Positions 18,314 to 24,230 of a stretch of 64,000 nucleotides of DNA are shown here, one piece after another (the stretch's first letter is position 1; each line of letters begins with the position of its first letter). Both the position numbers and the translations under genes were made by a program. Under the pieces are notes generated by a model, which was not told where the DNA came from, did not search any database, and was given only the letters and a program-made list of their open reading frames with translations. The DNA is from Methylobacterium organophilum (lineage in GTDB: Bacteria > Pseudomonadota > Alphaproteobacteria > Rhizobiales > Beijerinckiaceae): contig NZ_BPQV01000001.1 of the NCBI RefSeq assembly GCF_022179465.1, positions 434,001-498,000 on the forward strand, given 5' to 3'.

Positions 18314-19333
18314 GTGACGCCCGACCTGATCCTGCCCCACGAGGGGGTGAGCCCCACTTTCGCCTCCCGGCCCGTCTGGTGCGGGCGGGGCAGCACCGTG
18401 ATCGGCGCCGCGACGCTCGGGATCCAGGCCTGGCTCGGCGACGACAGCGTGATCCGCGCGGACGGGGAGGCGGTGACGATCGGCGACCGCTTCTGGCTCG
18501 GCAACCGTTCCACCGTGCACATCGCCACGGACACCCACGGCACCGTGGTCGGCGACCGCGTCACGGTCGGCCGCAACGCCGTGGTCCATGCCTGCACCGT
18601 CGGTTCCGACGTGGTGATCGAGGACGACGTGGTCATCCTCGACGGCTCCACCGTCGCGGACGGCGTCCTGATCGAGGCGGGGGCCACCGTGTTTCCCCGC
18701 TCCACCCTGGAGGCGGGCTTCGTCTATGCCGGCAGCCCGGCCAAGCGGCAGCGGCCGATTTCGGCCGAGGCCCTCGCCGAGCGGGCCGAGCGCCTGCGCG
18801 AGGCCACCGCCTCGGCGCCGAGCGCGGCGGAGGGGCTGGAGGTCGAGGTCGAGGAATCGGTCTTCGTCGCCCGCACCGCGCGGCTGCGCGGGCGCATCGC
18901 CCTCGGCGCCGGCTCGACCATCCTGTTCTCCTGCGAACTCAGCGCCGAGGTCGGGCCGATCGTGATCGGCGCGGACACCAACGTGCAGGACAACACCGTC
19001 ATCCGCACCCGCGGCGAGGGCGTGGCGATCGGGCGCGACACCACGATCGGGCACAACGTGCGCATGGCCGATTGCCGGATCGGCTCGCGCAGCCTGATCG
19101 GCATCGGCTGCGTGCTCGCCCCCGGCACGGTGGTGGCCGACGACACCATGCTCGCGGGCGGCGCCACTACCGATCCCGGCCAGGTTCTGGAGAGCGGCCA
19201 TCTCTGGGGCGGCCGCCCGGCGCGCATCCTCGCCCCCCTCGACGAGGGCAAGCGCACGATGATCGCCCGGATCGTCGAGGGCTACTGCGCCCATGGGCGG
19301 GAATACCGCAAGGCGCAGGAAGACCTGGCCTGA
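18314..19333 (+). CDS. Tandem gamma-carbonic-anhydrase-like hexapeptide protein
   Basis: A 339-aa protein made of two left-handed beta-helix domains of the gamma-carbonic-anhydrase/YrdA type (about 18-150 and 178-305), joined by a helical linker (ALAERAERLREA). In domain 1 the residues equivalent to the first and third zinc His are present (His69, His92) but the second is Arg87; domain 1 also has the VIRAD motif (Arg48, Asp50). In domain 2 the second His is present (His247), the first is Arg231 and the third Ala252, and the interface pair Gln225-Asp226 (NVQDN) is kept. Each domain alone would be zinc-dead. GTG18314 is the start, with GAGAGG ten bases upstream. Enzymatic activity is not established; a structural or acyltransferase-like role is possible. 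Confidence 0.85.
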   Translation: MTPDLILPHEGVSPTFASRPVWCGRGSTVIGAATLGIQAWLGDDSVIRADGEAVTIGDRFWLGNRSTVHIATDTHGTVVGDRVTVGRNAVVHACTVGSDVVIEDDVVILDGSTVADGVLIEAGATVFPRSTLEAGFVYAGSPAKRQRPISAEALAERAERLREATASAPSAAEGLEVEVEESVFVARTARLRGRIALGAGSTILFSCELSAEVGPIVIGADTNVQDNTVIRTRGEGVAIGRDTTIGHNVRMADCRIGSRSLIGIGCVLAPGTVVADDTMLAGGATTDPGQVLESGHLWGGRPARILAPLDEGKRTMIARIVEGYCAHGREYRKAQEDLA

Positions 19334-20719: not shown

Positions 20720-20813
20720 ACCTGGGAGGGAACCTTGGCCGTGCCCAAGGCGCTTCCGGATTTGACGCTAAACCGATCGGCGGGCAGTCATGCCCCAGCC
20801 GGGAGTGTCTGCC

Positions 20814-23800
20814 ATGTTCCGAACGCTCATGACCACGCGCCGCTTCGCGCCGCTGTTCTGGTGCCAGTTCTTCTCGGCCTTCAACGACAACTTCCTCAAG
20901 AACGCCCTCGCGCTCCTGATCCTGTTCCGGGTCGGGCAGGGCGGCGAGCCCGGCCAGGGCGGCATCCTGGTGACGCTGGCGAGCGCGGTCTTCGTCGGCC
21001 CGTTCTTCATCCTGTCGGGGCTCGGGGGCGAGCTGGCCGACCGCTACGACAAGGCGGTCCTGGCCAAGCGCCTGAAATTCGCGGAGATCTTCGCGGCCCT
21101 GCTCTCGGTGCTGGGCTTCTGGCTGCAATCCGTGCCGCTGCTCTTCGCGGCTTTGGGCCTGTTCGGAATCATCGCGGCACTGTTCGGCCCGATCAAGTAC
21201 GGCATCCTGCCCGACCACCTGAAGCGCGAGGAGCTGACCGCGGGCAACGCCCTGGTCGAGGCCGCGACCTTTCTGGCGATCCTGCTCGGCACCATCACCG
21301 CCGGCCTCGCCATGGCGGCGGGCGGGCATGCCCTCGGCCTCGGAGCTGGCCTGATGGGCATGGCGGTCCTGTGCTGGCTCGCCGCCCGGGCCATCCCGAA
21401 GACGGGGGAGGGCGCGCCCGACCTCAAGGTCGATCCCAACATCGCCCGCTCGACCGTCGCCCTGCTGCGCGACCTCCGGGCCGATACGCGGCTCTGGCGC
21501 GGCTCGGTGATCGTGAGCTGGTTCTGGCTCGTCGGCATCGTGGTGCTGTCGCTTTTGCCGGTGCTGGTGCGCTCCGCGCTGAACGGCAGCGAGATCGTGG
21601 CCACCACCCTGCTCGCGGTGTTCTCGGTCGGCATCGCCCTCGGCTCGGGGCTCGCCTCCTGGCTCGCGAGCGGGCGCATCGTGCTGCTGCCGACGCCGGT
21701 CGGTGCGGTGCTGATGGGCCTGTTCGGCCTCGACCTCGCCTGGACCATCGCCCATCTGCCCCCGCCCGCCGGCACGCCCATCGGCGCCTGGGACTTCCTC
21801 GGCAGCGCCACGGGCCTGCGCATCGCCCTCGACTTCGCGGGCCTCGCCATTTCCGGCGGCCTCTACGTGGTGCCCTCCTTCGCCGCGGTGCAGGCCTGGA
21901 CGCCGAAGGAGAAGCGCGCCCGCGTCATCGGCGCGGTCAACGTGATGACGGCGGCCTTCATGGTCGGCGGCACCCTGGCGCTGGCCGTCCTGCAGGCCCT
22001 CGGCCTCACCATGGCGCAGCTGCTCGCCCTGGTCGCCGTGCTCAACCTCGTGGCCGGCGCGATCATCCTGAAGACGCTGCCGACGAGCCCCTTCCGCGAC
22101 TTCCTCTCGATCCTGTTCCGCGCCTTCTACCGCCTGGAGGTGAAGGGCCTGGAGAACGTCGACAAGGCCGGCCCCAACGCCATCGTCGCCCTCAACCACG
22201 TCTCCTTCCTCGATGCGCCCCTGGCCCTCTCGCTCCTCGACAAGGAGCCGGTCTTCGCCATCGATCACGGCATCGCCCAGCGCTGGTGGGTGAAGCCCTT
22301 CCTGCGCGTCACCAAGGCGATGCCGCTCGACCCGACGCGGCCGCTCGCCACCCGCACCCTCATCAACGCGGTCAAGAGCGGCGAGACGCTGATCATCTTC
22401 CCCGAGGGGCGCCTCACCGTCACCGGCAGCCTGATGAAGGTCTATGACGGGGCCGGGCTCATCGCCGACAAGTCCGGCGCCATGGTGGTGCCGGTGAAGA
22501 TCGACGGGCTGGAAAAGACCGCCTTCTCGCGCCTGTCCCGTGCCCAGGTCCGCCGGCGCTGGTGGCCGAAGGTGACGGTGACCGTGCTGCCGCCGGTGGC
22601 CCTCTCGGTCGATCCGGCCCTGAAGGGCAAGACCCGCCGCCGGGCGGCCGGCGCCGCCCTCTACGACGTGATGTCGGATCTCGTCTTCCACACCGCCGCG
22701 ATCGACCGCAGCGTCTTCTCCGCGCTGATCGGGGCCGGGGCGGATCACGGCTGGCGCCGCAACGCCCTGGAGGATCCGGTCACGGGCAAGCTCAGCTATG
22801 CCCGGCTGGTGATGGGCGCCAACATCCTCGGCCGCAAGCTGATGCCGCTCGCCCCCGTGGGGCGGCCGGTGGGACTGATGCTGCCCAACGCCAACGGCGC
22901 GGCGGTCGCCTTCTTCGCGCTCTCCAGCGCGGGCCGGGTGCCAGCGATGATCAACTTCTCCGCCGGCCCCGCCAACGTGCTCTCCGCCTGCAGGGCGGCA
23001 GAGGTCGACACCGTGATCACCTCCCGCGCCTTCATCGAGAAGGGCCGCCTCGGGCCGCTCGTCGAGGCGATCGGCACGGCGGTGAAGCTCGTCTATCTGG
23101 AGGACGTGCGCGCCACCGTCGGCACCGGCGACAAGATCCGCGGGCTCCTGAGCCCGCGCCGGCCCCTGGTGAAGCGGACAGGCGAGGATCCGGCGGCGAT
23201 CCTGTTCACCTCCGGCTCCGAGGGGACACCCAAGGGCGTGGTGCTTGCCCACCGCAGCATGCTCGCCAACGTCGCCCAGGTCGCCGCCCGCATCGATTTC
23301 GGGACGACCGACAAGGTCTTCAACGTGCTGCCGGTCTTCCACGCCTTCGGGCTCACGGCGGGCCTGGTGCTGCCGCTGGTCTCCGGCGTGCCGGTCTATC
23401 TCTATCCCTCGCCGCTGCATTACCGGATCGTGCCGGAGTTGGTTTACGGCTCGAACGCCACCGTCCTGTTCGGCACCGACACCTTCCTCACCGGCTATGC
23501 CCGGATGGCCCATGCCTACGACCTGCGCTCCCTGCGCTACGTCGTGGCCGGCGCCGAGGCGGTGAAGGCCGCCACCCGCAAGACCTGGGCGGAAAAGTTC
23601 GGCCTGCGCATCCTGGAAGGCTACGGCGTGACCGAGTGCGGGCCGGTGGTGGCCCTCAACACGCCGATGTTCAACCGCTTCGGCACGGTCGGCCGGCTGC
23701 TGCCGGGCATGGAGCATCGCCTGGAGCCGGTCCCCGGCATCGAGGAGGGCGGCCGCCTCGCGGTGAAAGGGCCGAACGTGATGCTCGGCTACCTGCGGGC

Positions 23801-24230
23801 GGAGAATCCCGGCCTGCTGGAGCCGCCCAAGGACGGCTGGCACGACACCGGCGACATCGTCGCGATCGACGCGGAGGGCTTCGTGACGATCAAGGGCCGG
23901 GCCAAGCGCTTCGCCAAGATCGCGGGCGAGATGGTGTCGCTGGCCGGCGTCGAGGCGCTCGCCGCGGAGCTCTGGCCCGACGCCCCGAGCGCGGTCGCCG
24001 CCGTGCCCGATGCCCGCAAGGGCGAGCGGCTGATCCTGTTCACGGAGGCCAAGGGCGCGACCCGGGCCGGCTACCAGAGCTTCGCCAAGGGCCGCGGCGC
24101 CACCGAGATCGCGATTCCGGCGGAAGTGGTGGTGCTCGACAAGCTGCCGATGCTCGGCACCGGCAAGGTCGACCAGGTCGGCGTGACCAAGCTCGCCAAG
24201 GAACGCGCCGCGACGGCGGAGGCGGCCTGA
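20814..24230 (+). CDS. LplT-Aas fusion: lysophospholipid transporter / acyltransferase / acyl-ACP synthetase
   Basis: One 1138-aa polypeptide with three functions that E. coli encodes as lplT and aas. Residues 1-420 are an MFS-type 12-helix carrier (FWCQFFSAFNDNFLKNAL opening) for flipping lysophospholipids inward. About 435-620 is a PlsC-type acyltransferase with NHVSFLDAP (His462) and FPEGRLTVTG. About 640-1130 is an AMP-forming ligase with the P-loop LFTSGSEGTPKGV near 797, LEGYGVTECGPVV and DGWHDTGDIV. Together they would import lysophosphatidylethanolamine, activate a fatty acid on ACP and re-acylate the lipid. ATG20814 has GGGAG eight bases upstream; ATG20790 would add eight residues. 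It ends in a strong hairpin. Confidence 0.93.
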   Translation: MFRTLMTTRRFAPLFWCQFFSAFNDNFLKNALALLILFRVGQGGEPGQGGILVTLASAVFVGPFFILSGLGGELADRYDKAVLAKRLKFAEIFAALLSVLGFWLQSVPLLFAALGLFGIIAALFGPIKYGILPDHLKREELTAGNALVEAATFLAILLGTITAGLAMAAGGHALGLGAGLMGMAVLCWLAARAIPKTGEGAPDLKVDPNIARSTVALLRDLRADTRLWRGSVIVSWFWLVGIVVLSLLPVLVRSALNGSEIVATTLLAVFSVGIALGSGLASWLASGRIVLLPTPVGAVLMGLFGLDLAWTIAHLPPPAGTPIGAWDFLGSATGLRIALDFAGLAISGGLYVVPSFAAVQAWTPKEKRARVIGAVNVMTAAFMVGGTLALAVLQALGLTMAQLLALVAVLNLVAGAIILKTLPTSPFRDFLSILFRAFYRLEVKGLENVDKAGPNAIVALNHVSFLDAPLALSLLDKEPVFAIDHGIAQRWWVKPFLRVTKAMPLDPTRPLATRTLINAVKSGETLIIFPEGRLTVTGSLMKVYDGAGLIADKSGAMVVPVKIDGLEKTAFSRLSRAQVRRRWWPKVTVTVLPPVALSVDPALKGKTRRRAAGAALYDVMSDLVFHTAAIDRSVFSALIGAGADHGWRRNALEDPVTGKLSYARLVMGANILGRKLMPLAPVGRPVGLMLPNANGAAVAFFALSSAGRVPAMINFSAGPANVLSACRAAEVDTVITSRAFIEKGRLGPLVEAIGTAVKLVYLEDVRATVGTGDKIRGLLSPRRPLVKRTGEDPAAILFTSGSEGTPKGVVLAHRSMLANVAQVAARIDFGTTDKVFNVLPVFHAFGLTAGLVLPLVSGVPVYLYPSPLHYRIVPELVYGSNATVLFGTDTFLTGYARMAHAYDLRSLRYVVAGAEAVKAATRKTWAEKFGLRILEGYGVTECGPVVALNTPMFNRFGTVGRLLPGMEHRLEPVPGIEEGGRLAVKGPNVMLGYLRAENPGLLEPPKDGWHDTGDIVAIDAEGFVTIKGRAKRFAKIAGEMVSLAGVEALAAELWPDAPSAVAAVPDARKGERLILFTEAKGATRAGYQSFAKGRGATEIAIPAEVVVLDKLPMLGTGKVDQVGVTKLAKERAATAEAA

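Follow-up and report, generated by a model that had tools for sequence, protein, structure and literature searches.

The gene at positions 18314..19333 (+ strand) encodes a two-domain protein resembling gamma-class carbonic anhydrases (gamma-CAs). It is predicted to be a left-handed beta-helix zinc hydrolase in which both domains very probably form one composite active site, the other trimer interfaces having been abandoned. Domain 1 would provide the zinc ligands His69 and His92 along with an Arg48-Asp50 pair on its third face, and domain 2 the third zinc ligand, His247, along with Asn223, Gln225, Asp226 and a zinc-facing Tyr324. Arg48 is predicted to pair with Asp226 across the interface, in the manner of Arg59 and Asp76 between the subunits of canonical gamma-CAs. 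The two other interface types of the ancestral homotrimer would have been given up, and the working unit would be a two-domain pseudo-dimer with one site, built most likely from one chain and possibly from two. Catalysis would most likely proceed by attack of a zinc-bound hydroxide, with CO2 as its target or, as in PaaY, an acyl-CoA thioester.

Gene and domain layout

The window analysed is the whole stretch of 64,000 nucleotides (contig positions 434001-498000), and the host genome of the gene is 5.06 Mb in size. The gene has a GTG start and encodes 339 amino acids. Its start position is shared by 60 of 60 loci of the genus (GTG at 58 and ATG at two), and its closest named homologues are those of Methylobacterium and Methylorubrum (69-82% identity). 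Judged from its sequence, the protein is a member of the gamma-class superfamily: it is composed of tandem left-handed beta-helices, with Hexapep and LbH matches and a hexapeptide register running through both domains, and shows kinship to solved gamma-CAs (phmmer; E 1.7e-26 for PDB entry 3ixc and 5.9e-26 for 3r1w). A sequence-only reading of the window had already proposed tandem left-handed beta-helix domains at this location, and the open reading frame, its coordinates and both domains agree with that proposal.

Domain 1 (amino acids 1-150; 18314..18763), the putative donor of the A-side of the site, possesses Pfam Hexapep/LbH matches and was aligned by phmmer with 3r1w over amino acids 8-151. 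It is followed by a short C-terminal helix (amino acids 151-166; 18764..18811), placed by DSSP on low-confidence AlphaFold2 models and without the active-site Tyr, and by a linker (amino acids 167-178; 18812..18847). Arg162 and Val183 are separated by a spacing of 21 residues in most homologous sequences (70 of 97), within an overall range of 18-25. Domain 2 (amino acids 179-310; 18848..19243), the putative B-side donor, was aligned by phmmer with 3ixc over amino acids 174-331, and NCBIfam model NF050158 matches at amino acids 177-336, under its cut-off (162 of 250 bits). The helix at the C-terminus of this domain (amino acids 311-339; 19244..19330) includes Tyr324 (codon 19283-19285). All of these features are on the + strand. 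AlphaFold2 models were used for rough secondary structure only: that built with 50 two-domain sequences of the genus (A1) was of low confidence (mean pLDDT 58, pTM 0.42), as was that built with 17 two-domain and 13 single-domain rows (A4; mean pLDDT 53, pTM 0.48), where domain 1 gained no alignment depth because every single-domain row aligned to domain 2.

Among the NCBIfam models listed, none was matched at its own cut-off; for the PaaY/CaiE models the scores were 101 of 319.6 bits (TIGR02287) and 73 of 305 bits (NF010150). PADLOC assigned the protein to no family. Another open reading frame of the window (positions 20790-24230, +) encodes 1146 amino acids and combines MFS transporter, acyltransferase and AMP-binding domains in a single polypeptide.

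Division of the active-site residues

A total of 146 loci with a two-domain match yielded 97 distinct sequences, namely that of the window, 79 others of at least 60% identity to it (giving 80 genus-like sequences) and 17 of 44-55% identity from other genera and plasmids. As 80 of the 97 represent one genus, independent evidence comes mostly from the other 17. In the phmmer alignments, the three zinc His positions fall on His69, Arg87 and His92 of domain 1 (with 3r1w) and on Arg231, His247 and Ala252 of domain 2 (with 3ixc); alignment with YrdA of E. coli K-12 (from NC_000913) gives the same positions. Arg48-Asp50 is found at the RGD position and Gln225-Asp226 at the QD position.

On the domain 1 side, Arg48 and Asp50 (18455..18463; equivalents of Cam Arg59 and Asp61), His69 (18518..18520; Cam His81) and His92 (18587..18589; Cam His122), all on the + strand, are invariant in 97 of 97 sequences, and the position of Arg87 (18572..18574, +), equivalent to Cam His117, is occupied by His in none. 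On the domain 2 side, Asn223, Gln225 and Asp226 (18980..18991, +; Cam Asn73, Gln75 and Asp76) are each invariant in 97 of 97, as is His247 (19052..19054, +; Cam His117), the sole zinc ligand that this domain would give. The position of Arg231 (19004..19006, +; Cam His81) holds His in seven of 97 and that of Ala252 (19067..19069, +; Cam His122) in one, locus L159. At the remaining counterpart positions, domain 1 carries the equivalents of Asn73 and Gln75 in no sequence and that of Asp76 in three, and domain 2 that of Arg59 in none and that of Asp61 in two. Residue 63 (18500-18502), at the Gln75 position of domain 1, is Gly in 97 of 97.

The 38 single-domain relatives used as a control all possess the three His and the equivalents of Arg59, Asp61 and Gln75, while Asn73 is matched in 37 and Asp76 in 32, the other six having Glu. 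Measured against the canonical pattern of three zinc His per repeat unit, domain 1 retains two in all 97 sequences, and domain 2 a single one in 90, two in six and all three in one. The split is not a chance pattern, as the eight retained residues are invariant in all 97. Two residues beyond those named in the sequence-only reading, Asn223 and Tyr324, also follow it. Tyr324 is present in all 96 sequences that reach this position and aligns with Tyr207 of 7aqq_y; the corresponding column of domain 1 contains Tyr in none of 31 representatives, and Tyr occurs anywhere within amino acids 151-178 in only two of 97 sequences.

By hexapeptide register, one prism face (PBz) carries the equivalents of Arg59, Asp61, His81 and His122 and another (PBy) those of Gln75, Asp76 and His117, with that of Asn73 at the turn before PBy. 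In trimers of gamma-CAs described in PMC8000050, whose interface list (Table 2) derives from homology models of two enzymes, one chain contributes Arg45, Asp47, His66, His89 and its N-terminus to the interface, and the next chain contributes Gln60, Asp61, His84, Met101 and a C-terminal helix with Tyr161; Arg45 and Asp61 form an inter-chain ion pair and Tyr161 is directed at the zinc. At seven shared landmarks, the numbering of PMC8000050 is converted to that of the window by adding 3 in domain 1 and 165, later 163, in domain 2, an offset that makes Tyr324 the equivalent of Tyr161. Zinc ligation by His64 and His87 of one chain and His82 of its neighbour is reported in PMC12648627, and PMC7199487 has the same two-to-one division of the His between neighbouring chains. 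By register and the published interface table, the two retained residue sets are, as aligned, the two sides of a normal subunit interface.

The zinc positions of the sequence-only reading were recovered by both alignments, and its division of the interface residues (Arg48-Asp50 in domain 1, Gln225-Asp226 in domain 2) held at the RGD and QD positions in 97 of 97 sequences. It had further assigned to domain 1 the set of one subunit and to domain 2 that of the neighbour, with which the register, the published interface residues and the conservation among the 97 sequences all agree. Its expectation that homologues would keep the complementary pattern stood across the 97 sequences, with one partial exception, L159 (genome G389), where His231, His247 and His252 occur together in domain 2. 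L159 is the only member with all three His in a single domain, which the reading had named as refuting, and the exception is partial in that Glu and Asn take the place of the Arg/Asp pair in its domain 2. This member might make domain2:domain2 sites too. The other carriers of His231 are six genus-like sequences of 63-64% identity; some members thus still have part of domain 2's own side.

Conservation by face and predicted assembly

Entropy was compared at outward sites only, after removal of 16 defining sites, in 19 rows comprising the window, 15 of the 17 non-genus sequences and three of the 79 genus-like ones (the truncated L144 and the near-duplicate L161 were left out). In domain 1, the mean was 0.51 bits for the retained face PBz, against 1.37 for PBy and 1.29 for the free face PBx; in domain 2, it was 0.58 bits for the retained PBy, against 1.58 for PBz and 1.63 for PBx. 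For live versus dead sites (29 versus 29), a permutation test that ignores phylogeny gave p=0.0001. The order of the faces was kept under all choices of outward sites tried. Two other choices gave 0.33 versus 1.74 and 1.44, and 0.79 versus 1.63 and 1.58, for domain 2; for domain 1 they gave 0.34 versus 1.23 and 1.14 and, as the least clear case, 0.77 versus 1.19 and 1.07. Among single-domain relatives, the interface faces had means of 0.75 and 0.54 versus 1.55 for the free face in the 23 of rhizobial type, and of 1.22 and 1.02 versus 1.77 in all 38.

A comparison using 35 sites of the published interface list (residue 1, loop 68-70 and residues on both sides in PMC8000050 being left out) gave an A-side mean of 1.09 in domain 1 versus 2.22 in domain 2, and a B-side mean of 2.18 versus 1.62. 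With phylogeny ignored, this contrast was reached in 248 of 20000 permutations for the 21 beta-helix sites and in 0 of 20000 for the 35 sites with termini; the latter figure overstates the case, as in that version the linker is in part set against genuine termini. Several sites run against the trend: Ser66 and Ser141 of domain 1 vary more than their domain 2 counterparts, and Val249, on the lost side of domain 2, is invariant. The N-terminal residues of domain 1 are fairly conserved, as would be expected if they pack on the helix of domain 2, while the segment ahead of domain 2 is not.

At the aligned positions, constraint in each domain falls mainly on the side it has kept, and variation on the remaining faces of the former interfaces resembles that of free surface. 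In place of the two constrained interface faces of a canonical homotrimer, the conservation analysis finds one per domain. The earlier idea that the other interfaces are dead is supported with the defining residues excluded, and the puzzle raised with it, that a trimer cannot alternate two domain types evenly, is answered in that no trimer is required once the two remaining trimer-type faces have ceased to be conserved. The reading's central proposal of one rebuilt site gains support from the split and the face analysis alike. One site at the domain1:domain2 interface is well supported by these comparisons, unlike a classical trimer, and the loss of constraint on the two faces needed by a third subunit makes it unlikely that such a trimer has been conserved. 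We infer domain packing, zinc binding and catalysis from conservation and its division by face.

Our preference is for a composite site within a single chain. All the conservation evidence would fit equally well with a site between two chains, the first giving domain 1 and the second domain 2 in a domain-swapped dimer or chain, and the 18-25 residue stretch from Arg162 to Val183 does not decide between the two; but a fused gene with a linker of so narrow a range is most simply read as pairing in cis, and the two-chain arrangement is considered unlikely. A heterotrimer like that of plant mitochondria, in which a separate single-domain gamma-CA would join domains 1 and 2 as third subunit, has a precedent in the gammaCA/gammaCAL heterotrimer of plant complex I with its one conserved site (PMC7567890), and a separate single-domain gamma-CA was identified in 35 of 60 genomes of the genus. 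However, the other 25, including the window's own, had no gamma-CA match (E 1e-15) assignable to anything beyond the two-domain protein (for two of them the weaker match lay outside the matches listed and was assumed to be domain 1), and the faces that would touch a third subunit are as variable as free surface, making this arrangement highly improbable.

Least credible of all is a structural or regulatory protein, its zinc sites lost, in which domains 1 and 2 form separate homotrimers within a stacked trimer of chains. Tandem beta-helix domains could stack, and plant gammaCAL proteins lacking two of the three zinc ligands exist (PMC7567890), but neither the complementary and invariant retained ligands nor the single constrained face of each domain would be explained. 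The two-domain gene is present, at least in part, in 59 of 60 genus genomes (matches at E 1e-15); one genome (G201) possesses two single-domain gamma-CA genes.

The protein is in common with canonical gamma-CAs (Cam, YrdA and the CamH type) in its fold, the positions of its zinc His triad, the Arg-Asp and Asn-x-Gln-Asp motifs and the zinc-facing C-terminal Tyr. Unlike these single-domain homotrimers, which have three sites and all residues in every subunit, it keeps one interface side per domain, predicting one site per chain. An analogy, although of different fold and chemistry, is the C1/C2 pair of mammalian adenylyl cyclase, where complementary loss in tandem homologous domains has left one interface site active and the other dead. 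The plant complex I heterotrimer likewise has one working zinc site after ligand loss, but its site lies between two complete gammaCA subunits with a separate degenerate third subunit (PMC7567890), whereas in the present protein the two partners are fused and each lacks what the other retains. The descriptions of functional gamma-CAs in PMC12648627 and PMC7470111 are of homotrimers whose sites form where identical subunits meet. No description of a two-domain gamma-CA was found in the open-licence literature among the matches listed, by title or start of abstract, which is weak evidence of absence. If the proposal is true, it shows a route from a symmetric to an asymmetric enzyme in which each side of the active site is mutable on its own, unlike in a homotrimer, and which could offer a simpler scaffold for engineering.

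Possible function, origin and distribution

A real composite site need not make the protein a carbonic anhydrase. The architecture of gamma-CAs is also that of PaaY, a zinc-dependent thioesterase (PMC11110157), which makes an acyl-CoA hydrolase a serious alternative, one that we regard as falling a little short of an even chance. PaaY and CaiE are gamma-CA-like proteins encoded with acyl-CoA catabolic enzymes, and operons for a B12-dependent 2-hydroxyisobutyryl-CoA mutase and its ligase were identified in or near seven of the 17 non-genus loci, mostly along with a MeaB/MeaH chaperone, a GntR regulator and an ATP:cobalamin adenosyltransferase. The operon is immediate or close in five (Agrobacterium deltaense pEL101-243, Methylibium petroleiphilum PM1, Xanthobacter autotrophicus Py2 pXAUT01, L166 and L174); in the remaining two, a mutase cluster lies within about 12 kb, one being diverged or broken. 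Furthermore, all 60 genus genomes sampled gave matches over the cut-off for the beta-CA family, so CO2 hydration need not explain the retention of the gene in 59 of them.

Weighing against a thioesterase, no mutase operon was seen in the flanks examined of the other 10 non-genus loci, nor beside L179, the single genus genome checked. The mutase was rejected as a universal partner, since of 16 genomes with the two-domain protein 12 gave no mutase match exceeding 46% identity. The two readings overlap, as CO2 hydration is also known for some proteins of the PaaY type (PMC11110157). PaaY and CaiE also differ from the two-domain protein in being single-domain, PaaY orthologues being reported as homotrimers. 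The 2-hydroxyisobutyryl-CoA pathway is described in PMC7176365, the main text of which does not contain the term "carbonic anhydrase". The operon link makes the role of many gamma-CA-like proteins testable in one defined pathway. At L159/L166 (genome G389) the gene sits directly in the mutase operon, while at L167 (genome G537), which has a diverged mutase cluster (HcmA 62%), a short MeaH-like piece adjoins the two-domain gene in what looks like a rearranged region.

The proton-shuttle pair of gamma-CAs, at residues 72 (18527-18529) and 327 (19292-19294) of the window's protein, spans the interface. Outside the genus it is His72/Tyr327 in 15 of 17 sequences, with one Gln72/Tyr327 and one truncated sequence with His72. 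Among the 80 genus-like sequences it is Thr/His in 69, Ala/Tyr in six, Thr/Leu in four and His/Tyr in one, and the occurrence of Thr or Ala at the shuttle position in 79 of 80 is in keeping with a thioesterase. As the split follows phylogeny, the change is weak evidence for contact between the two residues; it suggests altered chemistry in the genus. A more far-reaching account, that fusion and complementary loss turned a homotrimer into a free-standing two-domain unit whose single composite zinc site serves an acyl-CoA hydrolase in coenzyme-A pathways and not CO2 hydration, is offered tentatively and is rather doubtful as a whole. Within the genus, the gene has moaE as its constant neighbour, located upstream in divergent orientation at 60 of 60 loci; this neighbourhood suggests no mechanism for the two-domain protein.

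A domain tree was built from 31 of the 97 two-domain sequences and 38 single-domain rows (L144 being left out). Domain 1 and domain 2 each formed a single group with 100/100 support, so the fusion and the split predate the divergence of known members. PaaY and CaiE of E. coli grouped together, apart from both domains. The best tree did not group domain 1 with domain 2, and forcing them together lowered the log-likelihood by 7.43 (AU p 0.378); on this tree, a sister origin by tandem duplication, as opposed to fusion of two paralogues, would be neither shown nor rejected.

Outside the genus, the two-domain protein was identified in seven genomes of a family draw of 298 (E 1e-25; one further match was a single-domain gene) and in seven of an order draw of 397 (E 1e-50), and in no non-genus genome of a phylum draw of 398 (E 1e-50). 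Among the best 10 of 207 records of a plasmid search, at least three from outside the genus had a two-domain match in one piece, and the viral contigs scanned contained no relatives of the protein. Its scattered occurrence outside the genus is consistent with transfer. One locus (L148) is carried by NZ_LR743510.1 of Methylobacterium bullatum, a linear record of 2.83 Mb labelled "plasmid 1" that has no annotated feature in the stretch; the plasmid label may be an assembly matter.
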